Shown in pieces: positions 928 to 20,016 of a stretch of 28,829 bases of DNA; within the stretch, counting starts at the first letter, position 1; each line of letters starts with the position of its first letter. The position numbers were made by a program, and so were the translations under genes. The DNA is from a virus. The notes below the pieces were generated by a model. That model searched no databases. It was not told the DNA's origin and saw only the letters and a list, made by a program, of their open reading frames with translations. The stretch lies in IMG/VR virus record IMGVR_UViG_3300027969_000338, positions 1-28,829 of that record. The stretch is one strand, 5' to 3'.

Positions 928-940
928 GGAATTTTTAACA

Positions 941-1327
941 ATGCATACACTTAAAGAAGCTTTAAGAATTACTCTTAATAAACTAAGTAAAGAAGAGTTA
1001 GTAAAACAGTACTTACAATTGGAGGATGAATTCGCTAGTAAAAGTATTGAATGCGAAAAAATTCAAAATGTACTTGAAAGTAATTACAATCCGTTAAATG
1101 ATAAACCCTCATTAGAATATAAAATTATTGAATACAATGAGATTTTTTATCAGATATTGGCGGATTTTAAATCAATTCGATCGGTTTTATTTATGCAAGA
1201 TCACTATATACAAAATAACAAAAAAGAATTAAACCGGGATATGTTATCCGGCGGAATAGATAGTTTAAGGAATTCTATAAACTATATAGAAAATGAGATA
1301 GTGGATCGCACCGGAATATATAACTAA
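941..1327 (+). CDS. Hypothetical protein, 128 aa, helical/coiled
   Basis: The chosen start is ATG 941 (MHTLKEAL), preceded by AAGGA at 926-930; an upstream TTG at 905 would overlap the preceding membrane peptide. The protein is rich in Lys, Glu, Asn and Ile and looks largely alpha-helical, with heptad-like Leu/Ile spacing. No family is recognised. It lies 57 nt upstream of the Gp88-like gene, probably in the same operon. Confidence 0.6.
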   Translation: MHTLKEALRITLNKLSKEELVKQYLQLEDEFASKSIECEKIQNVLESNYNPLNDKPSLEYKIIEYNEIFYQILADFKSIRSVLFMQDHYIQNNKKELNRDMLSGGIDSLRNSINYIENEIVDRTGIYN

Positions 1328-1384
1328 TTTTTTTTACTAGTATTTTAACAATTATCTAACAATCAATTACAAGGATTACACAAA

Positions 1385-2137
1385 ATGAATAAATTCAATC
1401 GCCGCCGCCTACTATCCGAAGATTCTAATAGTAAGACAATCAAGGGGCAACAATTCGGATTTTTAACCGGCATTCTATACTTATCGCCCTATACATTATC
1501 CGGGGTGAATTTATGCGCAAATGCTAAAGCCGCCGAATGTTTTAAAGGATGTTTATTTTATGCCGGGAGGGGCGCATTTAATAGCATTCAAGCCGCCCGG
1601 CTTAGTAAAACACAATATTACCTAGAAAATAGAGCGGATTTTTTAATCAATTTATGTATGGATATAGAACTATTAATCATTCATGCAAAAAACAAGGGTT
1701 TAACCCCTTTAGTACGATTAAATGGTACAAGTGATATCCGTTGGGAAAATTACCCGGTTGAATATAAGGGTAAAACATATAAAAATATTTTTGCGGTTTT
1801 TCCGAATATTCAATTTTATGATTACACAAAATTAAGTAATCGTAAGGATATTCCAAAAAATTATGATTTAACATTTTCTTACAGCGGATTACCCGGATTT
1901 TCTAGGTTTGTAGATCAAGCTTTACAGAATAAAATGCGGATCGCTGTAGTTTTCCGGGATATTGCAAGTATCCCAAAACGATTTTTAGATCGTAAAGTAT
2001 TGCCCGGCGATAATTCAGACATTCGCCATTTAGAACCTAAAAATTGCATTGTCGCATTGTATGCCAAAGGAAAAGCGAAAAAAGACTATTCCGGCTTTGT
2101 GATCGATCGCCCGGTTATCTATTTAAAGGCGGCTTAA
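1385..2137 (+). CDS. Gp88-family phage protein, 250 aa
   Basis: Residues 31-63 match the hallmark of the phage gene-product-88 family: L-S-P-Y-T-L-S-G, then three cysteines (C44, C52, C56; spacing C-x7-C-x3-C), then an A-G-R-G turn. The following part has I-R-W-E and the F-x-D-Y-T-K segment typical of this group. The family is spread over unrelated phages and plasmids. Its biochemical role is not established as far as I know; the Cys cluster suggests metal or Fe-S binding. ATG 1385 has AAGGA upstream. The gene is full of CCGG and GATC words, like the rest of the island. Confidence 0.75.
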   Translation: MNKFNRRRLLSEDSNSKTIKGQQFGFLTGILYLSPYTLSGVNLCANAKAAECFKGCLFYAGRGAFNSIQAARLSKTQYYLENRADFLINLCMDIELLIIHAKNKGLTPLVRLNGTSDIRWENYPVEYKGKTYKNIFAVFPNIQFYDYTKLSNRKDIPKNYDLTFSYSGLPGFSRFVDQALQNKMRIAVVFRDIASIPKRFLDRKVLPGDNSDIRHLEPKNCIVALYAKGKAKKDYSGFVIDRPVIYLKAA

Positions 2138-2144
2138 AGCTTAT

Positions 2145-2196
2145 CCGGTAATATCGCTCTTTACCGGGGCGATATTGCCGGGTAATTTTGCCCGGC
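2145..2196 (+). promoter_or_regulatory. Two mutually exclusive RNA hairpins between genes
   Basis: Hairpin 1 pairs CCGGTAATATCGC (2145-2157) with GCGATATTGCCGG (2169-2181): 12 Watson-Crick pairs and one G-T wobble, with an 11-nt loop. Hairpin 2 pairs GCCGGG (2177-2182) with CCCGGC (2191-2196) over an 8-nt loop. They share bases 2177-2181, so only one can form. They lie 17 nt before the next ATG (2213). This could be an attenuator-like or RBS-exposure switch, or simply palindromic island DNA. Confidence 0.45.
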
Positions 2197-2212
2197 TTTA
2201 AAGGGGTTTTAT

Positions 2213-2428
2213 ATGCAAAATATCATTTTATCTAATGATGATCTTATTCTTTTAATTAAGAGCCTACACGATCCTATAAATCGTTTATATAACAATCATT
2301 TAGATCATAAGGGTAGATCCTCTTATGATAACGATCTTTTACCCGAATTAAATAGATTAATAGAATTAAGAAAAATATTCACGAATGAATTATTAAGCCG
2401 CTGTAATCTATCCGGGAGCGATCTATGA
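2213..2428 (+). CDS. Hypothetical protein, 71 aa
   Basis: This is a small, probably helical protein with no recognised family. AAAGGGG lies about 10 nt before the ATG, just after the paired hairpins at 2145-2196. Its TGA overlaps the next ATG as ATGA at 2425-2428, so the two are probably coupled in translation. Confidence 0.6.
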   Translation: MQNIILSNDDLILLIKSLHDPINRLYNNHLDHKGRSSYDNDLLPELNRLIELRKIFTNELLSRCNLSGSDL

Positions 2429-2616
2429 GCGATCTATATATTATTTTGAGCGAATTCCTAGAAAATTCCCGGATCAATTTTAAAGAAGAGATATTAAACA
2501 ATCTTAGAATCACTCTATATAAAACCCGGGGTTTTAAAGTAAGAATGTATTCATATGACAATATCACCGGTGAATTTTTAGGTAAAGATACTATTGATTT
2601 TTCAACCATTATTTAA
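2425..2616 (+). CDS. Hypothetical protein, 63 aa
   Basis: This is the last gene of the left operon. It starts in an ATGA overlap with the gene before. It has no recognisable domain, cysteines or membrane segment. The C-terminal half alternates beta-type residues with Gly (around Y-D-N-I-T-G-E-F-L-G), suggesting a small beta fold. A strong terminator follows 31 nt after the stop codon. Confidence 0.55.
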   Translation: MSDLYIILSEFLENSRINFKEEILNNLRITLYKTRGFKVRMYSYDNITGEFLGKDTIDFSTII

Positions 2617-2647
2617 GGGGTTAACATCCTAAAATAATTTAAACCAT

Positions 2648-2670
2648 AAACCCCGGATAGGGGTTTTTTT
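2648..2670 (+). terminator. Rho-independent terminator of the left operon
   Basis: The stem is AAACCCC (2648-2654) with GGGGTTT (2660-2666), the loop is GGATA, and the T-run continues to 2670. Seven perfect pairs plus the uridine tail make this a textbook intrinsic terminator on the + strand. Confidence 0.85.
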
Positions 2671-3081
2671 ACTTTTAAGGGGCGCATATGTAAAGCCGGA
2701 TATATCTATTTTTTCTACTATCTTGATTGATAGGGGCGGCGGCTTATCTATTTTTTTTAGATCGCCGGGCTTATCTATTTTTTAAAAAATCCGGGCTTAA
2801 TCCGGGGATATTTTTCGCCCCGGTTAACTGTATTTTTTAAGAGTTAGATCATGCGATTAAATCGCCGGGTTATATCGCCGGGTTTTTTCCGGGCGATATG
2901 GTTTATCTATTCCGGGGTGATTGTTTTATTTTGTAATCGCCGGTATATTGTAGTAATATCGATTAGATTGATTTATAGCGGTTTTGAGGGGTTTTAAGGA
3001 TTTTATGCGCCCTTAGTATTAAAAAAAACGATCGCCAATTATGCGCCGTTTTGTTGGGTTTTGGTATGAAAACAGTTAATT
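2671..3081. other. Mostly non-coding tail of the island with short repeats
   Basis: There is no clear gene apart from one doubtful 48-codon frame listed separately. TTATCTATTTTTT-like words recur near 2703, 2744 and 2771, with a shorter copy at 2903. A perfect 8-bp inverted repeat (ATATCGCC 2872-2879 with GGCGATAT 2892-2899) encloses a T-rich loop. GATCGCC and CCGGG words remain dense until about 3,050, after which the composition becomes that of the phage. Confidence 0.45.
2851..2997 (+). CDS. Doubtful 48-aa ORF with one hydrophobic segment
   Basis: The frame runs from ATG 2851 to TAA 2995-2997. It encodes a basic N-terminus and a hydrophobic stretch around AIWFIYSGVIVLFC that could span a membrane. 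The Shine-Dalgarno is weak (AAGAG), it lies beyond a terminator, and it contains a hairpin. It may be chance. Confidence 0.2.
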   Translation: MRLNRRVISPGFFRAIWFIYSGVIVLFCNRRYIVVISIRLIYSGFEGF

Positions 3082-3133
3082 TTGTAAGGGTTTACCCTAA
3101 TCTGTATAAAAAAACACTAGGGTTTACCCTAAT
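3082..3133 (+). promoter_or_regulatory. Operator-controlled rightward promoter, two copies of the phage operator
   Basis: TTGTAA (3082-3087), a 17-nt spacer and TATAAA (3105-3110) form a good promoter-like pair. Operator copies GTAAGGGTTTACCCTAAT (3084-3101, mostly in the spacer) and ACTAGGGTTTACCCTAAT (3116-3133, at the expected start site) are exactly 32 bp apart, about three helix turns. The same 18-mer with four transitions recurs at 6993-7010. Nothing is encoded on the + strand downstream before the antisense HNH gene. Confidence 0.6.
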
Positions 3134-3243
3134 TACCCCCCCTAGAAATGACCCTAAATAGGGGTGTCAGGGTTTTTGAAAAAAAAAAATAAGTCAGTTT
3201 CCAAATATAAATTGACCTTGCCAAAATCTTGGCTAAAAATCAA
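3134..3243. other. Non-coding segment after the operators; weak terminator candidates
   Basis: On the + strand GACCCT (3150-3155) can pair with AGGGTT (3169-3174), followed by a few more T, and an alternative CCCCTA/TAGGGG pairing exists; either could end a short transcript begun near 3117. An A10 run follows the G at 3178, which is a T-run for the leftward operon, but no solid stem precedes it on that strand. GCCAA-AATC-TTGGC (3220-3233) is a small 5-bp hairpin. Confidence 0.3.
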
Positions 3244-3669
3244 TTAAAAATAATTTTTTACAACTAAATAATTATAGTCTTCATCAGAATAATCTTTTAC
3301 CCCTGTAGGCAGGTAATGCCTGTAGATTCCTTTAGATTCTAGCGCAGTCTTTTGTGTATGGCAGGAAATACATAAGCCTTGGAACAAGTTAACCATGAAT
3401 CTATCAAACTTTCTGCGGTGCGGTATGACATGGTCTATATGATCTGTTTGAGTTACCCGACCATCGATCAAACAACAGGCGCAAAGTGGGTGAATTGATC
3501 GCATAACTGTGCGCTGTTGCTTCCAAGCTGTGGAGTTGTACAACTTTGCATTAGTCTTATATTTATCTGATCTTTCTGCCCCATGATTTAAGCAGTAACC
3601 AGTTCCAAACGATTTTTTATCCTTGCACCCCAAAATATTACAGACCTTGGGGTTGGGCATGATCGGCAT
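3244..3669 (-). CDS. HNH endonuclease, 141 aa
   Basis: The HNH core is visible: C63-x2-C66, D76-H77-I-D-H80, N94, and C100-x2-C103-H104. This is the zinc-finger type of HNH nuclease. An extra N-terminal metal site is likely (C10, C15, C26, H29). HNH proteins of this type often assist terminase during packaging, or are free-standing homing-type nucleases; here the gene is last in the leftward early operon and no terminase is in view. It starts at a TAATG overlap with the DUF5856 gene. Confidence 0.85.
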   Translation of the reverse strand: MPIMPNPKVCNILGCKDKKSFGTGYCLNHGAERSDKYKTNAKLYNSTAWKQQRTVMRSIHPLCACCLIDGRVTQTDHIDHVIPHRRKFDRFMVNLFQGLCISCHTQKTALESKGIYRHYLPTGVKDYSDEDYNYLVVKNYF

Positions 3670-4160
3670 TATGATAAGAATCTAAGTTTGTATAAAGTGC
3701 TGTCTAACAAGGATGCTATTTCATCTAAGATGTTCTGTAGTTCTGAGTCCTGTGGCAGGTAAGGTCTAGCTTCTGCTAAGTATGCAGATAAGCCAACCAC
3801 ATATTCTATGGCAGGTTGTGGTAGTTTGTAGTTATCAGGATAGTCCTCGATGATGCCATACTTACCTTGGTATGCTTCTACAAAACCATCTACTAAATCA
3901 CCGATCTCTGTATACAGGCTTTCAAGTGCTTTGTGTTCAGCATAGGACTTAGTTTGCAAGTGCAAAATATGTGCATTAGTAACCGCATGAAGCAAATAGA
4001 TTACACAATTTTGGACTGAGTATTCCTTATTATCTGCCATATTTTCTTCCTTGTAACCTCTAGAATATGCCGCCTGTGCTACTTGCAAAGCTTTAGCTTT
4101 AGATGGAAATGGTCCTTGTGATCCCCAATACCAACCTTGATCAGTATGTCTAAAAGGCAT
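3669..4160 (-). CDS. DUF5856-like protein with N-terminal MPFRHT...GWYWG module, 163 aa
   Basis: The C-terminal part, from MADNKEYSVQ onward, resembles the phage DUF5856 family: helical, with H-A-V-T-N-A-H-I-L-H-L-Q and Y-x-E-H-K-A-L segments like a Dps/ferritin-type bundle. The N-terminal ~40 residues (MPFRHTDQGWYWG) are a separate short module often seen as its own small phage protein. ATG 4160 is chosen because GGGGGA stands 7 nt upstream; the TTG at 4214 has little support. A second start is likely at ATG 4040, behind AAGGAAG, which would give DUF5856 alone. The function is unknown. Confidence 0.65.
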   Translation of the reverse strand: MPFRHTDQGWYWGSQGPFPSKAKALQVAQAAYSRGYKEENMADNKEYSVQNCVIYLLHAVTNAHILHLQTKSYAEHKALESLYTEIGDLVDGFVEAYQGKYGIIEDYPDNYKLPQPAIEYVVGLSAYLAEARPYLPQDSELQNILDEIASLLDSTLYKLRFLS

Positions 4161-4166
4161 AAGAAT

Positions 4167-4190
4167 TCCCCCGAACTTGTGATCCGGGGG
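4167..4190 (-). promoter_or_regulatory. Hairpin that sequesters the RBS of the DUF5856 gene
   Basis: On the - strand CCCCCG (4190-4185) pairs with CGGGGG (4173-4168) around an 11-nt loop. The right arm is the Shine-Dalgarno (GGGGGA, 4172-4167) of ATG 4160. Closed, the stem should block translation from 4160 but leave the internal start at 4040 free. It could alternatively be a weak terminator, although no U-run follows. Confidence 0.45.
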
Positions 4191-4239
4191 GCTTCCCACG
4201 GAAAAATCAATCAATCAGACTGTCTACTACAAATTCATT

Positions 4240-4530
4240 TTAAATCAAATCATTGGTGATTGCCAACAATTCTTCTTCTGTACAATATTCTCGCTCAAAT
4301 GCTTTTCTTCCCATGCCATGAATTCCTGTTCCTGATCCTCGATGGTGGTATGGGCAAAGTCCAATGACAGGGGCTGTTGATCGCTTACCTGCCCGGCGGA
4401 TGTGATGAATTTCGCATGGAGTTCCTTGGTTTCCCAGTTTATAGCAAAGAATACAGCCGAATTCTGCAATTTTTCTGTAATGTTCTCGCTCATTTTTGGT
4501 CAAAACTAATTTTCCTGTATTTAACTCCAT
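4240..4530 (-). CDS. Ref-like HNH nuclease, about 96 aa
   Basis: The motif C-E-I-H-H-I-R-R, then G-L-C-P-Y-H-H-R-G, then G-I-H-G-M-G-R-K-A-F-E-R-E-Y matches the phage Ref family (RecA-dependent HNH nuclease of P1) and related DUF968 proteins. A Cys pair (F-G-C-I-L-C) precedes it. Ref proteins cut DNA within a RecA-made displacement loop. The start is uncertain: ATG 4530 is listed, ATG 4560 gives 106 aa, and TTG 4503, with AGGA 8 nt before it, would give 87 aa and the usual short overlap with the upstream gene. Confidence 0.75.
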   Translation of the reverse strand: MELNTGKLVLTKNEREHYRKIAEFGCILCYKLGNQGTPCEIHHIRRAGKRSTAPVIGLCPYHHRGSGTGIHGMGRKAFEREYCTEEELLAITNDLI

Positions 4531-4948
4531 CACTCCAAACACCGGGTACACCTTTATCATACAAACTCATAACAGTTTCAGGATACACCCAAATTGGCTT
4601 AAACTCATTGCCGGGTTGCGGATTAAAGCAAAATACATACTGCAACACAGCTTGTTTAGAACTGTAATAAGACATAAACAAGGGAATATTGTCATATTCT
4701 GTGGCTTTAATATTTGGCGAACCTTTGACTTGTACAACTCTTAATTCTGAGCCAGTATTCACAACATAATCAGGCAAGTTTCGCAAGAAGAAGTTTAGAT
4801 CACCAAAGTAAGAAATTGAGTTTTGTTTCTCATCAAACCCTATTTTGTGTATTTTATAACCTTTTTTAGCACAATATTCCTCAAACAATACCTCACCTTG
4901 ATTAACTACACTATTTCTTTCTGCATAGGTATTACTTCCATTAGCCAT
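4490..4948 (-). CDS. Possible PD-(D/E)XK-type nuclease, 152 aa
   Basis: L-P-D-Y-V-V-N, about ten residues, then L-R-V-V-Q-V-K-G gives the PD...(x)XK pattern of the restriction-endonuclease fold, with Gln in place of the usual Glu/Asp before V-K. An N-terminal helix with A-E-R-N-x-V-V-N-Q-G-E and a Y-F-G-D-L-N segment fit small Holliday-resolvase or restriction-like phage proteins. The gene has no clear Shine-Dalgarno. It lies between NinB and Ref-like genes, so a recombination or DNA-repair role is likely but inferred. Confidence 0.5.
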   Translation of the reverse strand: MANGSNTYAERNSVVNQGEVLFEEYCAKKGYKIHKIGFDEKQNSISYFGDLNFFLRNLPDYVVNTGSELRVVQVKGSPNIKATEYDNIPLFMSYYSSKQAVLQYVFCFNPQPGNEFKPIWVYPETVMSLYDKGVPGVWSDGVKYRKISFDQK

Positions 4949-5007
4949 ATTAATTATTAATAGATATATAAGATTGGAGGGGTGTTAAGTTGCATAACAG
5001 GTAGGTG

Positions 5008-5385
5008 TTAACTTTCATTCCACCTTACCTCATGCTCTATGCCAAAAGCAGTTATTAAATCCTGCATATCAATCATTTCTTTGCGGCTCATGTTTGAAGT
5101 AGATGCGCCAAGGACTACAAAACCAGTTCCATCCAAATTTGGCACAACATCCATTTTCTTAATTGAGGTGGAAAAAATATGCTTCCAATCTGTGGCTGAC
5201 AACTTTCGACCATGCCAGTTCACTTGATGGCTCACAGAATCGAGCATAGCCCACATACGAGCATTTTGCTCTAACGAACGAGTCTTAGCCTTAACTTCTA
5301 CAACAAAGCCGTCAGGGGCTTGTTTAACGGCTTTAATCGCATTCTCTCTTGCAGTCTCATGGACAAGTATGAATAATTGCTTCAT
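5008..5385 (-). CDS. ninB: NinB-family recombination protein, 125 aa
   Basis: The protein shows the NinB (Orf) family layout: a short beta start, then R-S-L-E-Q-N-A-R-M-W-A-M-L-D-S-V-S, then the central W-H-G-R-K-L-S-A-T-D-W-K-H-I-F and the C-terminal S-T-S-N-M-S-R-K-E-M-I-D-M. NinB binds single-stranded DNA and SSB and supplies RecFOR-like activity for phage recombination. The length fits the family (about 125-150 aa). It starts in an ATGA overlap with the DUF7696-like gene. Confidence 0.85.
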   Translation of the reverse strand: MKQLFILVHETARENAIKAVKQAPDGFVVEVKAKTRSLEQNARMWAMLDSVSHQVNWHGRKLSATDWKHIFSTSIKKMDVVPNLDGTGFVVLGASTSNMSRKEMIDMQDLITAFGIEHEVRWNES

Positions 5386-5552
5386 TTCTTACTTTCCCAT
5401 AGTTCCACAAGTGATTTTTGCAGTTTTTCTTTTTCTGCCATCCCCCTAGCTTTTTCAATCATGGCTAAGATTTCTCTGCGCTTCTTTAAAGGCTGTTTTG
5501 CAATGTGCTGTACTTCGCACTCATGCCGCCATTCTTCGCTATAGGTATCCAT
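5382..5552 (-). CDS. DUF7696-like small protein, 56 aa
   Basis: The frame begins MDTYSEEWRHECEV and continues with R-R-E-I-L-A-M-I-E-K-A-R-G-M-A-E. This resembles a small helical protein found next to replication genes in phages of Proteobacteria. Its TGA overlaps the NinB ATG (ATGA), and its ATG overlaps the stop of the DUF1376 gene (ATGTGATGG context). The function is unknown. Confidence 0.65.
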   Translation of the reverse strand: MDTYSEEWRHECEVQHIAKQPLKKRREILAMIEKARGMAEKEKLQKSLVELWESKK

Positions 5553-6292
5553 CACATAGCCTTTCTAATCATGTCTTCATACTGACCAATAGTGGCGCAA
5601 CCACTTGGATCAATGCCCAACTCAGCACCCTTGGCTTTAATCCCATCGATAGTATCGAACCATTTTTTCTCTACAGGCTTATCTTGAGTCTTTAAAAAGG
5701 TGGCTTTTGTATTCCTAACCCAGTTTCGCCAAGTAGCAAACCAGTCTAATTTTGCACCCTTTTGACCGCCTTGAGCAATCCAGTAGTCTTTAAACTGAGC
5801 AAAAACAGATTCGGGACTCAAATCCTTTCTTTCCGTCCTGCAAAACTCAATCCATTCTGTAGGCAAAATAAAATCTTTAGATAATCTTTGAGCCTTAGTC
5901 GCTTTAGCGACACTAATAATATGGTTATTGGTTAATGGTTCTTGGTTCTTGGTTAGGATCTGATCCGCATCTGATTTCAGATCTGATTTGGACTGCCATC
6001 TGATCTCATTTGCCTTACGAGCAGAATCGCTTTTAGCCTTATACTTATTGATTTCTTCATCTGCTCTCTTGCTGTGCCAACCATCATTTTCTAGTACAAA
6101 AAACTCCTCTAACAAAAGTAACACAATTTTAGGTGTAGATTTTATTTTTCGAGCAACAGAAATTTCATCTGCAAAAGGTGTCTCATTTTGATAGTAAAGA
6201 TCGATCATCCTACGATAAGCAAGATCTTCTTTATCGCTTAAATGGCGAGTATGCGATATGTAATCGCCAATGTGAAAGGGGTAAAAGTTCAT
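5552..6292 (-). CDS. DUF1376 (YdaU-like) replication protein, 246 aa
   Basis: The N-terminal ~100 residues match DUF1376/YdaU: F-Y-P-F-H-I-G-D-Y, then L-S-D-K-E-D-L-A-Y-R-R-M-I-D-L-Y-Y. The R-K-A-N-E-I-R-W-Q-S linker and a C-terminal W-x3-R-x-W-V-R-N segment are typical of phage replication initiator-like proteins. These winged-helix proteins sit where other phages keep an O-like initiator, so origin recognition is a reasonable inference. ATG 6292 is preferred because AGAGGAA lies just upstream; the TTG at 6307 lacks one. Confidence 0.8.
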   Translation of the reverse strand: MNFYPFHIGDYISHTRHLSDKEDLAYRRMIDLYYQNETPFADEISVARKIKSTPKIVLLLLEEFFVLENDGWHSKRADEEINKYKAKSDSARKANEIRWQSKSDLKSDADQILTKNQEPLTNNHIISVAKATKAQRLSKDFILPTEWIEFCRTERKDLSPESVFAQFKDYWIAQGGQKGAKLDWFATWRNWVRNTKATFLKTQDKPVEKKWFDTIDGIKAKGAELGIDPSGCATIGQYEDMIRKAM

Positions 6293-6384
6293 TTGTTCCT
6301 CTGTCAAAGGTAGTCAAAAAGGGTGGGCAGGAAATCGGTGACTAATCGACTTGTCGGGGTGCATCCCTATCCATACCCATAAGC

Positions 6385-6735
6385 TTACTCTACTTCTTCA
6401 ATCTTTACAAACAGTCTGCCGCCCTCTATTGGTGATCCTCTGCGAATAGTTAATTCATCGATTTGGAAATCATCATTAAATAAACCGGCATCTTGAAGCG
6501 CATCTAAGACCGATTTAATTCGGTTATCAATGTCTATTTTTCGCTTGTCTCTTGGCTGTAGTATTAGTTCTATTTTCAATTTTGCATCTTCCAAAGGTTT
6601 CAATCCAAGCAACATAACATACTCTCGGACTGCTTTTTTATATTTACGACCCTCTGCGGATAGCAAAATTCGGTTATTAAAAACCCTATAGTAAGAGTTA
6701 ATACTTGGGGGAAATGGTAGGACAAAATGCATCAT
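6385..6735 (-). CDS. rusA: RusA-family Holliday junction resolvase, 116 aa
   Basis: The protein fits RusA (about 120 aa): P-F-P-P-S-I-N-S-Y-Y near the N-terminus, K-x-D-I-D-N-R-I-K-S-V-L-D-A-L in the middle, and N-D-D-x-x-I-D-E-L after it. Asp68, Asp70 and Asp89 correspond to the catalytic aspartates of E. coli RusA. It should cut four-way junctions during recombination and before packaging. It begins at ATGATG in overlap with the repressor-like gene and is followed by a 92-nt gap without a clear gene. Confidence 0.92.
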   Translation of the reverse strand: MMHFVLPFPPSINSYYRVFNNRILLSAEGRKYKKAVREYVMLLGLKPLEDAKLKIELILQPRDKRKIDIDNRIKSVLDALQDAGLFNDDFQIDELTIRRGSPIEGGRLFVKIEEVE

Positions 6736-6938
6736 TGAAACTTGTCCGGGCGCAACATTTGGCGAGTAATTCTACCATTGCTTAATTGCTCAATTTTAGT
6801 CACATTTCTTAATGGAATGCCTTTGTTTCTAGCTTTCCACATATACACTCCGTTGTAAGTCATATTCAATAATTCAGATAGTTTTTTAAGACTACCAAAT
6901 TCAACTGTTAGTACATCAAAAATATTTGCTTGGCTCAT
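6732..6938 (-). CDS. Cro/YdaS-like HTH transcription regulator, 68 aa
   Basis: A small HTH protein: helix 2 is L-K-K-L-S-E-L-L-N-M, the turn is T-Y-N-G, and the recognition helix is V-Y-M-W-K-A-R-N-K. The I-P-L-R-N-V-T-K-I-E-Q-L-S-N-G tail is typical of YdaS/Cro-like phage regulators. AAGGAGGA lies 7 nt before the ATG. It is first in the leftward operon and faces the operator at 6993-7010, so autoregulation and control of the early genes is the natural inference. Confidence 0.85.
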   Translation of the reverse strand: MSQANIFDVLTVEFGSLKKLSELLNMTYNGVYMWKARNKGIPLRNVTKIEQLSNGRITRQMLRPDKFQ

Positions 6939-7088
6939 ATAGTGATCCTCCTTTGTTTGAGATTATACATACTTTTGTTATAAAAGACACATATTAGGGT
7001 TTGTCCTAGTGTTTATTTGTTGCAAAAGTGTCAAATAGGAGTATTATCAATACTGTAGTAACAATGTTTAACAATTTAAGGACACAAT
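6939..7088. promoter_or_regulatory. Divergent early promoters with a central operator
   Basis: Rightward promoter: TTGCAA (7020-7025), 16-nt spacer, TATTAT (7042-7047), leading to ATG 7089 with AAGGA before it. Leftward promoter: a perfect TATAAT on the - strand (6967-6962) but no good -35, as expected for a regulated promoter. The operator ATTAGGGTTTGTCCTAGT (6993-7010) lies between the two and is a weak inverted repeat. The same 18-mer occurs twice at 3084-3133. Confidence 0.7.
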
Positions 7089-7376
7089 ATGAAAAACTAT
7101 GATGCATGGCTTGAAAAACCTTACCAAGATCAGGCGGCTCAAGATGAATTAATCGAGTCAGAAACTTGGGAATTACTCCACTCTAGCAAAATGTTAACTT
7201 CTGTATCTTCTTTATGCGAAGCTATATCAGAAGATATTTTGTACAAAAAACAAGCCGAACTTGAAGAAGCAATGGATAAACTAGACTATAAAAAGTTTGG
7301 TGAAATAATTTACCATTTAAATTTAGACTTTTGGGAAGACTTTTGCACCCGACAAGTTATTAAGGATTTGGAATGA
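7089..7376 (+). CDS. Hypothetical early protein, 95 aa
   Basis: First gene of the rightward early operon. It is acidic, probably all-helical, with Tyr/Trp-rich ends, and I do not recognise it. ATG 7089 lies about 40 nt after the predicted transcription start. Its TGA overlaps the next ATG as ATGA at 7373-7376. First genes after a phage early promoter often counter host functions, but nothing in the sequence shows that here. Confidence 0.65.
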   Translation: MKNYDAWLEKPYQDQAAQDELIESETWELLHSSKMLTSVSSLCEAISEDILYKKQAELEEAMDKLDYKKFGEIIYHLNLDFWEDFCTRQVIKDLE

Positions 7377-7516
7377 AATATAAAATCTTTAATGAATTTA
7401 ATGAATGGATCAGGATTGGCTCATATAGCGATGCTGTCCACTATAAAAATGTTTATGGTTGGTCTTATAAACGAATTCCTGTAGTTAAACCTGTGTATGA
7501 AGATGCACCCTTTTAA
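7373..7516 (+). CDS. Hypothetical protein, 47 aa, acidic-PF C-terminus
   Basis: The frame runs from the ATGA overlap at 7373 to TAA 7514-7516. It starts MKYKIFNEFNEWIRIG and has an aromatic-rich middle. It ends in E-D-A-P-F, similar to the acidic tip of single-stranded-DNA-binding proteins that recruits repair enzymes. Placement between coupled genes supports translation. The function is unknown. Confidence 0.5.
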   Translation: MKYKIFNEFNEWIRIGSYSDAVHYKNVYGWSYKRIPVVKPVYEDAPF

Positions 7517-7525
7517 GGAAATAAA

Positions 7526-7681
7526 ATGGATTACTCCGAACATATATTAAGAATTAGCACCCTTATTCGATTGATGCATGATGCCTGTAATGCAAAAGAT
7601 TGGATAACAGCAACTGGATTTGCCAATGAAATTGAAGCACAAGCCAAACAACTCAAACACAATTTAGGACAAAACAAATGA
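7526..7681 (+). CDS. Hypothetical protein, 51 aa
   Basis: The frame runs from ATG 7526, preceded by AAGGAA, to the TGA overlapping the ERF start (ATGA, 7678-7681). It is a short two-helix-like protein with A-K-D-W-I-T-A-T-G-F-A-N-E-I-E-A-Q-A. Similar short frames commonly precede ERF genes, but I cannot assign a family. Coupling to ERF suggests co-expression with recombination functions. Confidence 0.55.
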   Translation: MDYSEHILRISTLIRLMHDACNAKDWITATGFANEIEAQAKQLKHNLGQNK

Positions 7682-8310
7682 ATATTTACCAAGCAATTTC
7701 AGGAGTACAAAAAGATTTGGCAGGAATGGGTATTGCCAAAAACAAAGAAAACAAAATGCAGGGATACAAGTTTCGGGGAGTTGACGATATATACAATGCG
7801 CTGTCTTCTATACTGCCAATGCATGGTGTTGTAATTCTGCCACGGATGTTATCTAGGGAATGTGTAGAAAGGGTTAATCAAAAAGGTACTGCCCTGTTTT
7901 ACACCACAGTAGAAGCTGAGTTTGACATTGTTAGCACAGTAGACGGCACAAAACATACTGTCAAAACCTACGGAGAGGCAATGGATAGTGGCGATAAATC
8001 CACTAACAAAGCAATGTCTGCCGCTTATAAATATGCTTGTATACAGTCATTCTGCATACCTACTGAGGGTGACAATGATACTGAGAACACAACACATGAA
8101 ATTACTTCAGTTAAAAAAACTAAGCTAACACAGCCTGAAATTCTATCCGGGATAAAGATTATTTTTGAAAGTAAAGATGAATCAGAACTAAAGCAAAACT
8201 ATACCAAGGCATATAGGTTTGCTTATGGGCAAGATGACACAACAGCGGTTGAACAGTTTACTGCCGCAAAGGATCAGCGCAAAGCCCAGTTGGAGAGTAC
8301 AAATGTCTAA
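7678..8310 (+). CDS. erf: ERF-family single-strand annealing protein, 210 aa
   Basis: The N-terminal half shows the ERF superfamily signature: Y-K-F-R-G-V-D-D-I-Y-N-A-L-S-S-I-L-P, then G-E-A-M-D-S-G-D-K-S-T-N-K-A-M-S-A-A-Y-K-Y-A. ERF proteins form rings on single-stranded DNA and anneal complementary strands for phage recombination and genome circularisation. The C-terminal ~70 residues are charged and helical, as usual. Gp157 (a common ERF partner) and an SSB-like gene follow; NinB and RusA stand in the opposite operon. Confidence 0.92.
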   Translation: MNIYQAISGVQKDLAGMGIAKNKENKMQGYKFRGVDDIYNALSSILPMHGVVILPRMLSRECVERVNQKGTALFYTTVEAEFDIVSTVDGTKHTVKTYGEAMDSGDKSTNKAMSAAYKYACIQSFCIPTEGDNDTENTTHEITSVKKTKLTQPEILSGIKIIFESKDESELKQNYTKAYRFAYGQDDTTAVEQFTAAKDQRKAQLESTNV

Positions 8311-8806
8311 CTTAACTTTATATCAAGTTTCAGACCAGTACCTAGCCGATCTAGAAAAACTCAATGACCTAGAGTTAGATGATCAAACATTTAAAGATAC
8401 CTTGGAGGGATTAACCGGTGATTTTGAACTTAAAGTTACTAATGTTTCTATGTATGTTCGTAATATTGAGGCTTCTGTCGAGGCTATCCGGGAGGCTGAA
8501 AAACAAATGTCCAATAGAAGAAAGGCAATGGAAAATAAAATAAATCGGCTTAAACAATATCTAAAAGACAATATGATTCGCACAGGCATTACTAAGGTTG
8601 ACTGCCCTTACTTTCAGTTAAGCCTAAGAAACAATCCTGAAACAGTTGAAGTAATTAACCTTGATGAAATACCACCGGAATACTTTGACATACCGCCATT
8701 ACCTGCGCCTGTGTTAAATAAAAAGGCAGTAAAAGATGCTATCAAAAGTGGCATTGAAATAAATGGAGCAAAACTAATTCAAAACCAATCTTTACAAATT
8801 AAATAA
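8303..8806 (+). CDS. Siphovirus Gp157-family protein, 167 aa
   Basis: This matches the phage Gp157 family: an N-terminal L-Y-Q-V-S-D-Q-Y, a long coiled helix with V-R-N-I-E-A-S-V-E-A-I-R-E-A-E, then R-N-N-P-E-T-V-E-V-I and an I-P-x-E-Y-F segment. The family is regularly found beside ERF or RecT genes; its biochemical role is unproven. ATG 8303 is chosen because TTGGAGAG stands just before it and it gives an 8-nt overlap with ERF; an upstream ATG at 8219 would overlap far more. Confidence 0.88.
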   Translation: MSNLTLYQVSDQYLADLEKLNDLELDDQTFKDTLEGLTGDFELKVTNVSMYVRNIEASVEAIREAEKQMSNRRKAMENKINRLKQYLKDNMIRTGITKVDCPYFQLSLRNNPETVEVINLDEIPPEYFDIPPLPAPVLNKKAVKDAIKSGIEINGAKLIQNQSLQIK

Positions 8807-8816
8807 GGAAAATATT

Positions 8817-9047
8817 ATGGGTATTAAATATGATGCAATTGCAAAAAATGGTTCTTACACAGACAAAAATGGTGTAGAAAAGTTTAAATGGTGCAAGGTA
8901 GGTATTGTAGTAGAAACTAAAAATGGCGGTCTAGCCATGAAAGTAGAACAGCTACCAGTACCTTTTGATGGGTGGATTCAGTTGGCTATACCAAAGCCAA
9001 AAGATGAGCAGTCTTCTGATATGCCTAATGACGATATACCTTTCTAA
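8817..9047 (+). CDS. SSB-like small protein, 76 aa
   Basis: The body is beta-rich (K-F-K-W-C-K-V-G-I-V-V-E-T-K-N-G-G-L-A-M-K-V-E) like a minimal OB fold. The last residues N-D-D-I-P-F are almost the exact SSB C-terminal tip that binds replication and repair partners. It follows ERF and Gp157 directly, with AAGGAAA before ATG 8817. A single-stranded-DNA-binding role is inferred from the tip and the context, not from a clear family match. Confidence 0.6.
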   Translation: MGIKYDAIAKNGSYTDKNGVEKFKWCKVGIVVETKNGGLAMKVEQLPVPFDGWIQLAIPKPKDEQSSDMPNDDIPF

Positions 9048-9048
9048 C

Positions 9049-9246
9049 ATGAAAGATAAAACTTTAACATTAGCTATTTGTACTGGGATTATTCTTTGCG
9101 GCTTTGTTATTTTCTTAACCGAATTAGCAAGGAAAGAAGAATATAAATTAAGCTGTGAACTTTTGATGGGGGGTTGGCATCCCGACCTGCCTCAGAAGTT
9201 TAGACAAGCTTGTGAAGATGCTAAAAAAGAAAGGAGTAATAGATGA
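9049..9246 (+). CDS. Small membrane protein, 65 aa
   Basis: The start chosen is ATG 9049 (MKDKTLTLAICTG), one nucleotide after the stop of the SSB-like gene; an earlier ATG at 8965 would overlap that gene by 83 nt. Residues ~4-23 form one strong transmembrane helix. The remainder is a cytoplasmic or periplasmic charged tail with two Cys. It overlaps the next gene by 4 nt. The function is unknown. Confidence 0.6.
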   Translation: MKDKTLTLAICTGIILCGFVIFLTELARKEEYKLSCELLMGGWHPDLPQKFRQACEDAKKERSNR

Positions 9247-9695
9247 ACAATTTAAAACAAAACATTGAAATTCTTTTTAAAACAAGTTTGGCAGACTGTG
9301 AGGCATTAGAAGATGCAAAAATGACATTAGAAGCTATTAAAGAAGCATTACCAATAGTATTTGATGAAATAATTAAAGAATCTTTAGATTTAATAGAAAA
9401 AGCTTTAGATGCCGATTCGACAAGCCCCTTAGAAAAACTTGAAGAATTTATAGACTTTTATGAGAATACTAAAATGAAGCCAAGCGCATACATATCAGAG
9501 GGTGGCATATTGTTTAAAGAGTCACCACCTGACTCAATGATTAAATTAACACCTTTGTATACAGCATTAAAAGATTTAACAGATGATGAAATCTTAGAGG
9601 TGGGCAATGAAATTGAACCATTAAAAGGTGGCACGATGGAACAAGCATTTATTTATTTTGCAAGAGCAATACTACAAAAAGCGAGTGAGGAATGA
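9243..9695 (+). CDS. Hypothetical protein, 150 aa
   Basis: This acidic, largely helical protein begins in an ATGA overlap with the membrane-protein gene and ends in another at 9692-9695. The middle (S-A-Y-I-S-E-G-G-I-L-F-K) may be a loop or strand region. No family is recognised. Its position fits early accessory functions. Confidence 0.65.
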   Translation: MNNLKQNIEILFKTSLADCEALEDAKMTLEAIKEALPIVFDEIIKESLDLIEKALDADSTSPLEKLEEFIDFYENTKMKPSAYISEGGILFKESPPDSMIKLTPLYTALKDLTDDEILEVGNEIEPLKGGTMEQAFIYFARAILQKASEE

Positions 9696-9865
9696 ACCAA
9701 AATATTTTTTGTAGCAAATGCCACAGAATACCTAGTCAATGTTGTTGTTCAAGCGAGTGGGGGATGAATAAAGAAATTATTATGAACCCTGACATACTTC
9801 CAACTTTAGAAGAATGGAAATTTTTTTGCAGGATGGTTAAACAAATGGAAGCAAAAATAAAATGA
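9692..9865 (+). CDS. Cys-rich small protein, 57 aa
   Basis: The frame runs from the ATGA overlap at 9692 to TGA 9863-9865, which overlaps the next ATG. The N-terminus has C7-x2-C10-H11 and then C17-C18-C19, so a small zinc knuckle is likely. The rest is a short helical tail (L-E-E-W-K-F-F-C-R-M-V-K). No family is assigned. Confidence 0.5.
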   Translation: MNQNIFCSKCHRIPSQCCCSSEWGMNKEIIMNPDILPTLEEWKFFCRMVKQMEAKIK

Positions 9866-10047
9866 ATAAAAAGTATGATGTAGTTTGTTTTAATCCAAAA
9901 TTGAATACAATGATTTGCCATTTGTCTTCTATATTGGAAGAAGAAAGTTTTGTAGAAGTACCATCTTTAAAACAGTTAGCGCAGGACAATTTAGACTTAG
10001 CTATGCGCTTAACTAGTAAACCTTATATCAACTCACCTTGGAGGTAG
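9862..10047 (+). CDS. Hypothetical protein, 61 aa
   Basis: It begins in an ATGA overlap with the Cys-rich gene and ends 1 nt before the next ATG. It has no clear domain. The central Q-L-A-Q-D-N-L-D-L-A-M-R-L segment is helical. It is part of the string of coupled small early genes. Confidence 0.55.
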   Translation: MNKKYDVVCFNPKLNTMICHLSSILEEESFVEVPSLKQLAQDNLDLAMRLTSKPYINSPWR

Positions 10048-10048
10048 T

Positions 10049-10240
10049 ATGAATAATTATTACAATACAGGCAAAGTAAAAATAGGTGTTAATTACAAGC
10101 CTAAACCATATGTCGAAAAAGATAAAGATATGCTATATCTTCAAACCTGCTTACTAGAAAAAACTCATCCTATTGAATATTTTCTAGTACCGGTCTTATC
10201 AATGATTAGGGCTTGTTTTCTTGGTAGATCAGTAGGCTGA
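10049..10240 (+). CDS. Hypothetical protein, 63 aa, 3' end overlaps the endolysin gene
   Basis: The N-terminal part (Y-Y-N-T-G-K-V-K-I-G-V-N-Y-x-P-K-P-Y-V-E-K-D-x-D-M-L-Y-L-Q) resembles short phage proteins of about 50 aa that I have no function for. GGAGG lies just before the ATG. The last ~25 codons run antisense through the 3' end of the convergent endolysin gene (10165-10240), so the C-terminus may be an extension after loss of an earlier stop. Confidence 0.55.
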   Translation: MNNYYNTGKVKIGVNYKPKPYVEKDKDMLYLQTCLLEKTHPIEYFLVPVLSMIRACFLGRSVG

Positions 10241-10599
10241 TTAGGTATACTCAGATGAGTCCACCGATCGAATTCTCTTATGAGTTGATCATAGGGCAAG
10301 TCTGAGTCCATAATAGCTTTAACAACCTCATCAGGAGTCAGTCCCGGCACTCGAAAGTCACAAGCAGTACCTACCCTATGCTGAGAACTAGATTTGCTAC
10401 CACAAGCATTATTGACCAACTCACTACGGAAAGCACTATTAACCATAATGGGTTTTCCATATAAAACAGCTTTGACTTCTTCAAGGAAATTTGCAAGTCT
10501 TTTAAGATTTTCAAGTTCAGCCTCATTGGGTGTATTGTCAAATTCTCGATGATTGGTAATAGTTAATTCGTCATAAGTAAAGTGTTTTGATAGATTCAT
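10165..10599 (-). CDS. M15-family peptidase endolysin, 144 aa
   Basis: This is a D,D- or L,D-carboxypeptidase-like lysin of the M15_3 type. The zinc site is visible: H74 and D81 (S-S-Q-H-x6-D) and H115 (W-T-H-L-S-I). The S-A-F-R-S segment at ~55-59 and an N-terminal F-T-Y-D-E-L-T start are typical. It should cut peptidoglycan cross-links at lysis. No signal peptide is present, so a holin is needed; holin candidates lie directly upstream. It starts in an ATGA overlap with the holin gene. Confidence 0.9.
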   Translation of the reverse strand: MNLSKHFTYDELTITNHREFDNTPNEAELENLKRLANFLEEVKAVLYGKPIMVNSAFRSELVNNACGSKSSSQHRVGTACDFRVPGLTPDEVVKAIMDSDLPYDQLIREFDRWTHLSIPNQPTDLPRKQALIIDKTGTRKYSIG

Positions 10600-11051
10600 T
10601 TTCTTACCATTCCTTGTATTTCTTTAGTTTTGTCTTTAGAGCCTTGGCTTGATCCAAAATAAAATGATAACACTTGACCTGCGGCACTTGTTACAAAACC
10701 TAATGCAAAAATAACTAATTGTTGTTGATTATCAGGGGTATCAATAAACATTAAAACAGCTATTAACATAAATGCTAGTCCTACTACACCAAGGGCTAAA
10801 ATAGGCACTACAGCTTTGTCTAAGGCTGTTGAATTGGCACTTGTGGCAACTTCAGCATGAGCCTTTCGAGCGGAATCTCTATCTTCTGCTTCTGCTTTAA
10901 ACCTATCGATGTCAGCTTGTATATGGGCTAATTCGCCTTGCTGTGCAAGTGTTTGTAAGTCTAATTGTGCCTTAGCTTTTTGTTCAGGATCAGGAATTAC
11001 TTTGTCTAAAACTTTCATTCCAACTGAAACAATATCATCTAGTCCAAACAT
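10596..11051 (-). CDS. Holin of the 3TM (GTA-holin-like) superfamily, 151 aa
   Basis: A long charged N-terminal part (P-D-P-E-Q-K-A-K-A-Q-L-D) is followed by two strong membrane segments, at about V86-F104 (V-P-I-L-A-L-G-V-V-G-L-A-F) and Q110-Y131, and a short basic tail. This is the layout of the GTA_holin_3TM family, in which the first segment is weak or amphipathic. It would form inner-membrane holes releasing the endolysin. It is linked by TAATG to the gene before and by ATGA to the endolysin. Confidence 0.8.
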   Translation of the reverse strand: MFGLDDIVSVGMKVLDKVIPDPEQKAKAQLDLQTLAQQGELAHIQADIDRFKAEAEDRDSARKAHAEVATSANSTALDKAVVPILALGVVGLAFMLIAVLMFIDTPDNQQQLVIFALGFVTSAAGQVLSFYFGSSQGSKDKTKEIQGMVRK

Positions 11052-11320
11052 TATTTTTTCCCATATTTTTCTCGCTCTTCAAGTAACTGCACTTTAACTT
11101 GTAATTGGTGTATATCTGTATAAATTTCATTTCTTAATTTATGCCTTGCTTCAGCAGACAAAGGTGAATCAGTTGGCACATTTTCTTTAGTTATTAGGGC
11201 AGGCATCTGCCCCTCAATCTTAGTTAGCCTAGTAGAAAAGTCAGATACCTGACCAAGTAGCCATGCAAGACAAGCTACAACAATAGGCAAGACTGCTTTT
11301 AAAATATCTTGAATGTTCAT
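11051..11320 (-). CDS. Small lysis-cassette membrane protein, 89 aa
   Basis: An N-terminal transmembrane helix (I-L-K-A-V-L-P-I-V-V-A-C-L-A-W-L-L-G) is followed by T-R-L-T-K-I-E-G-Q-M-P-A-L-I-T-K-E and a coiled-coil C-terminus. Similar proteins are common next to holins in phages of aquatic Proteobacteria. It may be an accessory holin, a spanin-like protein, or an XhlA-like factor. It is coupled on both sides. Confidence 0.65.
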   Translation of the reverse strand: MNIQDILKAVLPIVVACLAWLLGQVSDFSTRLTKIEGQMPALITKENVPTDSPLSAEARHKLRNEIYTDIHQLQVKVQLLEEREKYGKK

Positions 11321-11463
11321 TTTTTGTTAATGATGTCAAATAAAGATTTTACTTTTTCTTCAAGAACGGCAATCTGATTATGCATTTTAGCTAACACAAT
11401 AACAAGAGTTACAAATCCAATTAACAAACTAGATAACTTTGAAATTGTATCAAGCAAGTCCAT
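11317..11463 (-). CDS. Putative 48-aa membrane protein (holin-like)
   Basis: The frame runs from ATG 11463 (shared TAATG with the gene before) to TGA in ATGA overlap with the 89-aa gene. It has one transmembrane helix (L-L-I-G-F-V-T-L-V-I-V-L-A), then a coiled-coil-like tail (I-A-V-L-E-E-K-V-K-S-L-F). The architecture copies the 89-aa neighbour in miniature, hinting at duplication or partner formation. The function is inferred from context only. Confidence 0.6.
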   Translation of the reverse strand: MDLLDTISKLSSLLIGFVTLVIVLAKMHNQIAVLEEKVKSLFDIINKK

Positions 11464-11621
11464 TATTGAAGTTTTAAAACAACTGCGATTAAACTAGCCA
11501 TAATAAATCCTGCACTACCAATCATTATTTTTTCTAGTCTTTTTAATCGAGCATTAATAGTTTCGTACCGGAAAGCACAAACCGCTTCATGGCTATTTAG
11601 CCTTGCTTCTGTTTCATCCAT
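11463..11621 (-). CDS. Putative 52-aa membrane protein with N-terminal coiled region
   Basis: The frame runs from ATG 11621, with TTGGAG before it, to TAA in a TAATG overlap with the 48-aa gene. The order is reversed relative to its neighbours: a charged coiled part first (E-T-I-N-A-R-L-K-R-L-E-K), then a transmembrane helix at the C-terminus (I-G-S-A-G-F-I-M-A-S-L-I-A-V-V). This is the XhlA-type arrangement. A lysis or holin-accessory role is inferred. Confidence 0.6.
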   Translation of the reverse strand: MDETEARLNSHEAVCAFRYETINARLKRLEKIMIGSAGFIMASLIAVVLKLQ

Positions 11622-11654
11622 ACCAACTCCAATAAAGTTAATTATTGTTTTATT

Positions 11655-12104
11655 TTATATGGGGCTAAGATATTTTACTACCTCTTGAGGTTTTACAAAA
11701 GCATCAGGATTATGTTCTAAAAATTCCCACCAAAGAAATTGGTTTTTTGTAAGGGAAGACCTATCCTTTAAGAGATTAACATTTTCAGGATGACCAAAGA
11801 TTAACGGATCACTAACAGACCATAACACAATACCTCTTTTACCCTGATGCCAAGCTAAATGTTGAAAGAATGAATCGCACCCAATCCATATATAACATTC
11901 TTTTATTAAACTTTTAAGTTCCTCGATGCTAAGATTCTTTCTAAAATCTTCAACTAATTGTTTCTCGCCCTCGATGCCAACTTGCACAATCTCAAATCCT
12001 ATATTGATTTGTATTAATGCAATCAGTTCTTCCCAATAAGGATAGTTCTTAGGGTTTTGTTTGCCATTAGTTAAAGCTTTAGCATATGGAGCAATAATAA
12101 TCAT
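11655..12104 (-). CDS. C-terminal half of a GT9-like glycosyltransferase, 149 aa
   Basis: The pattern I-I-I-A-P-Y-A-K, then N-Y-P-Y-W-E-E-L-I, then V-Q-V-G-I-E-G-E, then C-Y-I-W-I-G-C-D-S-F-F-Q-H-L-A-W-H-Q-G-K-R-G-I-V-L-W-S matches the nucleotide-sugar-binding half of heptosyltransferase-like (GT9) enzymes. The N-terminal Rossmann half is absent here but seems to be fused to the end of the upstream glycosyltransferase. The ATGA overlap (12101-12104) would keep the two halves in step. The substrate is unknown. Confidence 0.7.
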   Translation of the reverse strand: MIIIAPYAKALTNGKQNPKNYPYWEELIALIQINIGFEIVQVGIEGEKQLVEDFRKNLSIEELKSLIKECYIWIGCDSFFQHLAWHQGKRGIVLWSVSDPLIFGHPENVNLLKDRSSLTKNQFLWWEFLEHNPDAFVKPQEVVKYLSPI

Positions 12105-13090
12105 AAATACAGCTTTCTAAATGCGCCCTCGATGCTATCTTGCCACCTCCATTGATCCATCTTTTTATAAATGCTCCATTGATCTATACTCCCAAATAAT
12201 TCTTTAGCTTCCGCAATTGATCTTCCGGGTATGATCTCAGGATAGCAAGTAAACACCACAGGGTTATCGATGTAAGGCAGTACATGAGTAAATACCAAAT
12301 GATCACCCATACCACAATTAAGCACCACAATGGTTTTATCATTAAATCGAATAAAGTTTCTAAAAATCTGCTCATCATGCTCAAACATTTCCGCTTTAGT
12401 TTCTGATCGAATACCACCACCAGGATTTTTCATATGCCAAGTCACAGCATTAGGCACAGCATGAATGTCATAACCCTTTTGATGCAGTCCATAGGTAAAC
12501 AATGTTTCTTCCCTGTGCGCCACCCTAGACAGTCCTAGATTGTAATCATAAACCCCTGCACGATAGAGAAAAGAACAATGCAGATGCTCAACCTTTTTTG
12601 AGTTCTTAATCTTTTCCCATTGGATATTTGGCTCAATGCTAATATGCTCAATCTTGCCTGTAGATAATGAAGTATCAAAATTTGTTGGTGGAGTCAGTAT
12701 CGAGCCGCCTACAGCACCAGTATTTAAATTGTAAGTAGTATGAAAATATAGATTCTCTAAGACATTAGGTTCAGGAATAGCATCATCATCAACTCGCCAT
12801 ACCCAATCAAAGCCCATTGTATTAGCCCTTTGATGGATATAATGCTGACCTTTTTTCTCAGCATACTGCCATTCCCATGCTATCTTTTTACTGTCTAGCA
12901 TCTTAAAGAAATAGGAATAAATCATCTCATTCCGCATATCTTTGGGTTCATCATTGTCATCAAAGATAATCAGTTTATCTACTGGCTTAGTTTGATTAAT
13001 AATGGCACTTAAAACTAAAGGTAGAGTTGTAAAGTATCTACCCCTAGTTGCTACAGAACAAAGAACCTTACCCACGATTCCAAGCACCAA
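12101..13090 (-). CDS. Family-2 glycosyltransferase with GT9-like C-terminal extension, up to 329 aa
   Basis: Residues 1-~245 are a GT2 (GT-A fold) domain: C-S-V-A-T-R-G-R-Y at the start, I-I-F-D-D-N-D, and the metal-binding R-V-D-D-D-A at 99-104. From ~250 the sequence I-V-V-L-N-C-G-M-G-D-H-L-V-F-T-H-V-L-P resembles the N-terminal Rossmann half of GT9 enzymes. The start is uncertain: TTG 13090, GTG 13087 or GTG 13075; the last gives the usual short overlap with the methyltransferase gene. It probably glycosylates a virion protein or host surface glycan. Confidence 0.8.
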   Translation of the reverse strand: MVLGIVGKVLCSVATRGRYFTTLPLVLSAIINQTKPVDKLIIFDDNDEPKDMRNEMIYSYFFKMLDSKKIAWEWQYAEKKGQHYIHQRANTMGFDWVWRVDDDAIPEPNVLENLYFHTTYNLNTGAVGGSILTPPTNFDTSLSTGKIEHISIEPNIQWEKIKNSKKVEHLHCSFLYRAGVYDYNLGLSRVAHREETLFTYGLHQKGYDIHAVPNAVTWHMKNPGGGIRSETKAEMFEHDEQIFRNFIRFNDKTIVVLNCGMGDHLVFTHVLPYIDNPVVFTCYPEIIPGRSIAEAKELFGSIDQWSIYKKMDQWRWQDSIEGAFRKLYL

Positions 13091-19410: not shown

Positions 19411-20016
19411 TTAAGCAATTCGAAGCCATAGATTACCTGAATTTATTGTGCCATCATCTCCTGAGGTACTTAGAGAAATTGTACAAGCCCTCCATGTGCC
19501 TGATAATCCTAAACCAACTAAACCCCCAACATTTGGTGCATATGAAACAAATGCATTATACCAACTACCACCACCAAGATTTCCTGCCGCATAATTAAGA
19601 GAAGAACCTGCTACAGTACTACCAATAGCATAAAGTGTATTGTTACTATTAATCATTCCTGCTGTATATGTTCCTACTGAACTACCACTTGGTACACCTA
19701 ATGCAACACTTACAGAAGTAGAGCCTGAAGTAGAAATACCATTGCCTCCTGATACAGAAGTTACTCCACTTGATAAAGTGTTTGAGATAGTTACAGAGCC
19801 AGTAGAAGCGGATACAGATATACCAGTACCTGCCGTTAATGAAGTTACTCCTGCATTAGTTAATGTAACAGAACTACCTAGGGCAACAGAACCACCTCCC
19901 GACATTCCTGTTCCTGCTGTTACAGTTAAAGAAGAATTTTGCAATCCATTATTACTTGCTTGTCCTGAAGAATTTACAGTATTAGCAAATTGGCTAAGAT
20001 TAAATGCTTGTGTCAT
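19411..20016 (-). CDS. Gly/Ser/Thr-rich tail fibre protein, 201 aa
   Basis: The N-terminal ~115 residues are imperfect beta repeats: T-A-G-T-G-M-S, T-A-G-T-G-I-S and V-S-G-G-N-G-I-S, each followed by S/T-rich strands such as G-S-V-T-I-S-N-T. This is a common shaft motif of phage fibres. The C-terminus (W-Y-N-A-F-V-S-Y..., ending L-W-L-R-I-A) forms a short tip. It begins in an ATGA overlap with the gpJ-like gene. Confidence 0.75.
   Translation of the reverse strand: MTQAFNLSQFANTVNSSGQASNNGLQNSSLTVTAGTGMSGGGSVALGSSVTLTNAGVTSLTAGTGISVSASTGSVTISNTLSSGVTSVSGGNGISTSGSTSVSVALGVPSGSSVGTYTAGMINSNNTLYAIGSTVAGSSLNYAAGNLGGGSWYNAFVSYAPNVGGLVGLGLSGTWRACTISLSTSGDDGTINSGNLWLRIA

Follow-up and report, generated by a model that had tools for sequence, protein, structure and literature searches.

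The left and right operators of phage lambda belong to one operator family that is present at more than one distant place, and they overlap promoters. In mycobacteriophage L5 and cluster A, the operator/stoperator sites are 13 bp long and asymmetric, and their orientation is tied to transcription (PMC9283540). In prophage CP-933P, the target of YdaT is an inverted repeat, TTGATT-N6-AATCAA, with half-sites 6 bp apart (PMC8630535, PMC9986795).

The window analysed here, i.e. the whole stretch of 28,829 bases that constitutes one IMG/VR virus record, holds a family of sites that can be set beside each of these systems. As in L5 (PMC9283540), there are several copies per genome, some at promoters and some remote from them, in short gaps between genes; unlike the L5 sites, those described here are near-palindromic, 16-17 bp long and of mixed orientation. 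The L5 operator/stoperator system may serve as the closest working analogy, yet the present sites are not a member of it, for they occur in either orientation and a repressor of that kind was not identified. The closest known setting for the gap between the divergent early operons (the early gap) would be the YdaS/YdaT regulation of CP-933P, in whose immunity region a YdaS-type Cro-like gene likewise lies at the divergent early region (PMC8630535, PMC9986795). The TTAGG-N6-CCTAA arrangement has the same spacing as the CP-933P YdaT site, but the half-sites differ and the copies here recur at distant operon borders; no relative of YdaT was recognised in the window. Unlike in lambda, a -35 box is here preceded by the early-gap site, and other copies are found at a convergent junction. 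Here, I show by sequence comparison that these sites share a sequence, recur at corresponding positions, keep a preferred spacing to a promoter and are mostly intergenic.

Three related sites in the window

The leftward early operon (minus strand) opens with a gene for a YdaS/P22-Cro-like HTH protein at 6732-6938 (PF15943, 46.9 bits with a cut-off of 30; phrog_35, E 5.8e-9) and continues, at 3244-6735, with RusA, a primosomal protein, NinB, a RecA-dependent nuclease, DUF5856 and HNH. The rightward early operon (plus strand, 7089-9047) starts with a 95-aa protein (7089-7376), for which one relative only was found, followed by the Erf annealing protein and further genes. A rightward block carrying the GP88 gene (1385-2137, plus strand; PF17338, 125.9 bits) converges on the leftward early operon. 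Tail and neck genes lie at the right end of the window and no terminase or head gene was identified in it; the window is therefore probably a phage fragment. Among the tail genes, at 14144-18469, a protein of 1441 aa is encoded in which long collagen-like repeats of the SGYSGFSG type occur.

All three sites were read on the minus strand. The early-gap site, between the divergent early operons, lies at 6993-7010 (CTAGGACAAACCCTAA at 6994-7009; 25.5-26.4 bits), while the junction of the leftward operon with the GP88 block holds two copies, one at 3084-3101 (TTAGGGTAAACCCTTA at 3085-3100) and the other at 3116-3133 (TTAGGGTAAACCCTAG at 3117-3132), the latter with a terminator-like hairpin followed by GTTTTTTTAT. 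An earlier note, made from the letters of this DNA, had described these sites as copies of one operator, and on the sequence of the window its description holds in every detail: the three positions are correct, the sites at 6993 and 3116 differ in direct comparison by four bases, every one a transition, they agree at 18 of 22 bp when one is reverse-complemented (ATTAGGGTTTGTCCTAGTGTTT and ATTAGGGTAAACCCTAGTGTTT), and the two junction copies are spaced by 32 bp. The latter two also have AGGGTTTACCCTAAT in common, without any difference. Two matches with three or fewer mismatches to the 3116 site were reached in none of 100 shuffles; likewise, a score of at least 14 against the consensus of the family is reached by three 16-mers of the window and by none in 20 shuffles. 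The three sites are real and beyond chance. A literature search on the site sequences returned only unrelated papers.

The phage contig L003 is the close relative of the window, with about 96% identity over most of 5,031-12,995 and 88% over 938-4,949. The early-gap site is kept in it, 166 of 166 bases around the site being identical. At 3084-3133, by contrast, sequence has been replaced between conserved flanks and both junction copies are absent; these two copies are therefore dispensable. The alignment with L003 starts at 938 and takes in GP88, a phage-type gene, so that phage DNA extends at least to 938, and the claim that it begins by 3,082 was mistaken. The first 3000 bases of the window have an unusual short-word composition, rich in GATCGCC and CCGG, with a GC content of 0.33; since L003 has the same composition from 938 on, at 88% identity, this part is phage and not a chimera.

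The site family in the early gap of other phages

The sequence TTAGGRYAAACCCTAA, or the one-base-longer form TTAGGGWAAACACCTA, was found between divergent early operons in about 30 recovered phage loci. For the early-gap comparison, 80 loci with relatives of the primosomal gene of the window were fetched; in these, scored with a 16-bp matrix, the divergent gap upstream of the primosomal-gene module reaches a site score of 22-28 bits or else does not exceed 11 bits, a two-peaked distribution obtained with matrices that were trained partly on sites from these same phages. The longer form, TTAGGG(A/T)AAACACCTA, takes the same early-gap place in L313, L318, L324, L326, L332, L342, L348 and others, and L004, L210 and L211 carry the identical 15-base core. 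Both forms occur in L343, about 31 bp apart, which is close to the 32 bp of the junction pair, and the early-gap site of L343 is inverted relative to that of L319. At a wider scale, the palindrome ATTAGGGTAAACCCTA was found in at least 120 IMG/VR stretches, versus 12 for the same letters read backwards, and 87 of 124 palindrome matches are intergenic by a simple gene call, among the matches listed. Relatives of DUF5856 led to no further sites, no site of the Methylophilaceae phage P19250A reached the threshold applied, and Curvibacter phage P26059B has only a weak match (15.3 bits).

The position of the early-gap site with respect to the Erf operon deserves attention. The window has a sigma-70-like promoter at 7020-7047 (plus strand; TTGCAA-16-TATTAT, a match to the consensus only), the -35 box of which starts 10 bp from the site. 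A promoter of this kind with its -35 box 10-11 bp from the site, on the Erf side, was found in 7 of 19 non-redundant flanks, the window included; in shuffles the mean was 0.8 and none of 2000 reached 7, nor did any pair of adjacent spacings in 300 shuffled sets. In L362 a promoter matching at 12 of 12 positions is placed one more turn away, the gap being 21. Such a fixed, turn-spaced position suggests contact with RNA polymerase, with which activation and repression would both be compatible. On the other side, a TATAAT at 6962-6967 (minus strand, read from the sequence) is the likely -10 box of the leftward operon; it was missed by the promoter scan and a good -35 box is lacking.

The early gap of the window also contains two dyads, CTTTTGTTATAAAAG at 6972-6986 over the leftward promoter and AGTATTATCAATACT at 7040-7054 over the rightward -10 box, both of them, by their position, candidate operators of the HTH protein. 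They bear on the reading according to which the HTH protein itself, as a Cro- or CI-like autoregulator, would be the repressor of all three sites. Its gene, of the YdaS/P22-Cro-like type, has its start 55 bp from the site; a YdaS-like gene is the first gene beside the site in the window, L343, L360, L338 and L345 and adjoins it in many site-bearing phages, and the longer form lies in the early promoter region of L004, L210 and L211, in which, L003 aside, the HTH protein has its closest relatives (close relatives are few). Still, the same site stands beside unrelated first genes, namely one for a 59-aa protein, behind which a winged-helix-like protein is encoded (L319, L320, L350, L374, L380), or one for a 124-aa protein (L321, L354, L355, L375, L376), and it is common to YdaS-like genes with differing recognition helices. 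Nor does it track the YdaS-like gene, being absent with some of them (e.g. L344 and L356), and L344, whose HTH protein is similar, has no site above background. In L124, which was found via the palindrome and has the same early module, a YdaS-like HTH gene and the site in its divergent gap, GTAAGC-type dyads at 5340-5440 flank the shared site and are better candidates for the operators of its YdaS-type HTH protein. Because the site survives a change of the adjacent gene, and other dyads are available both in L124 and in the window, the HTH protein of 6732-6938 is probably not the binder, and a repressor role for it at all three sites is an unlikely reading. A DNA-binding gene present in all site-bearing contigs and absent from the controls was not found, the contigs being incomplete.

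The earlier note had proposed one repressor, probably this HTH protein, acting on distant sites. The idea of one regulator at distant sites, also away from promoters, is supported, for independent phages have members of the site family at operon borders of corresponding kinds; the choice of the HTH protein as the binder is not, and the term repressor is premature, since a position that precedes a -35 box by one helical turn is equally typical of activators and repressors.

Sites at other operon borders

In 12 site-bearing contigs, some of them incomplete (383,658 bp), which had been picked for their early-gap site or, in the case of L062, for the palindrome, 42 sites were counted and 38 of these are intergenic; the nine contigs taken as controls (330,522 bp), in which a related early module is present and an early-gap site is not, hold seven sites, one of them intergenic. 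The phages within groups are related and genes were called as simple open reading frames, which applies to all such counts. About 24 of the 38, by my own count, lie outside the early gap. The convergent junction between the GP88 block and the early operon is occupied in L385 (3325), L386 (2020) and L389 (6472), so that the pair at 3084 and 3116 of the window has counterparts there. Other copies occupy the gap in front of the terminase genes (L385 61-90, L387 1839, L389 3841, L400 11744), and further ones in gaps between co-directional early genes.

At the junction, the copies might simply be intrinsic terminators of the leftward early operon, their likeness to the early-gap site being secondary. 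On the minus strand 3116-3133 scores as a terminator and is followed by GTTTTTTTAT, 111 bp past the last stop codon, and the same hairpin with TTTTTT stands at the same junction in L385 and L386. Neither the copy at 3084 nor the junction site of L389 has such a T-run, however, and the hairpins are weak, with -4 to -8 kcal/mol and z-scores of -0.2 to -1.6 (for 3116-3133, where a T-run is present, -8.1 kcal/mol and z -1.63). Moreover, L003 does without the junction hairpin, and terminators would leave the early-gap sites and the pre-terminase copies unexplained. That the junction copies are plain terminators is therefore improbable; a double role of 3116-3133, as regulator site and terminator, is possible.

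A host regulator as a possible binder

It may be asked whether a regulator of the host binds the sites and is borrowed by the phages. The sites are common to phages with different structural genes that have no obvious DNA-binding gene in common, paired AGGGTWWACCCTA dyads occur in promoter regions of some Burkholderiales, and the longer form is present in the Limnohabitans phage DC31 (L466), as TTAGGGTAAACACCTAG at 20006, in a gap of about 930 bp (19820-20750). Against this, TTAGGRYAAACCCTAA was found in two of 150 Burkholderiales genomes, with phage genes alongside in one of the two, and the longer form was found in one of 251; the AGGGTWWACCCTA dyad pairs number only 1-5 per genome and are arranged differently. 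Borrowing of a host protein is thus quite unlikely, and a global host regulon was rejected by the counts, the sites being nearly missing from Burkholderiales chromosomes. The Burkholderiales assembly with TTAGGRYAAACCCTAA beside phage genes, together with phage DC31, suggests a Burkholderiales host for these phages.

The AGGGTWWACCCTA dyads, which are probably operators of host regulators, were seen in Alcaligenaceae and Rhodoferax-type genomes (L125-L196), 1-5 dyads per genome and mostly paired at 23-24 bp, near CoA-transferase-like, glycerol-kinase-like and other genes. The gap of DC31 also contains repeated TTATCCACA-like sequences and iterons, of the kind seen in a replication origin.

Proposed regulation at the operon borders

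The explanation favoured here, with moderate confidence, is that one sequence-specific DNA-binding regulator, most likely phage-encoded, acts at operon borders and has these sites as its targets. In the early gap its place would be one helical turn before the -35 box of the Erf operon, from which RNA polymerase could be contacted, while the YdaS/Cro-like protein would probably work on the separate dyads over both promoters. The tandem sites at 3084 and 3116 would mark the meeting of leftward early transcription with the GP88 block, and protein bound to them would most likely limit read-through, one copy perhaps being aided by its hairpin. I infer the binding itself, its being due to a single protein at all sites, and the block to read-through. 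Against this explanation speak the negative result for a DNA-binding gene specific to the site-bearing contigs, the lack of both junction copies in L003 and the T-run beside the sites at 3116 and in L385 and L386, which fits a plain terminator.

On a bolder and more doubtful view, freshwater phages of differing structural genes would share one code of operon-border sites, and the regulator reading it would contact the polymerase from upstream, in phase with the helical turn, and would halt transcription at convergent operon ends; this might represent a second, independently evolved stoperator-like system. Freshwater bacteria have abundant phages whose gene control is little known, and a set of sites recognisable from sequence alone may mark the transcription units of these phages and predict which of them have a regulator in common, with cross-immunity or shared control as possible consequences. 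The site DNA would furthermore be a direct bait for finding the regulator.

Other repeated elements were met along the way. In L008, L039 and L075, a LexA-box-like CTGT-N8-ACAG lies between copies of the palindrome, and in Tenacibaculum loci (L129, L133, L163 and others), which belong to a distant phylum, paired AGGGTTAACCCTA dyads recur about 21 bp apart.
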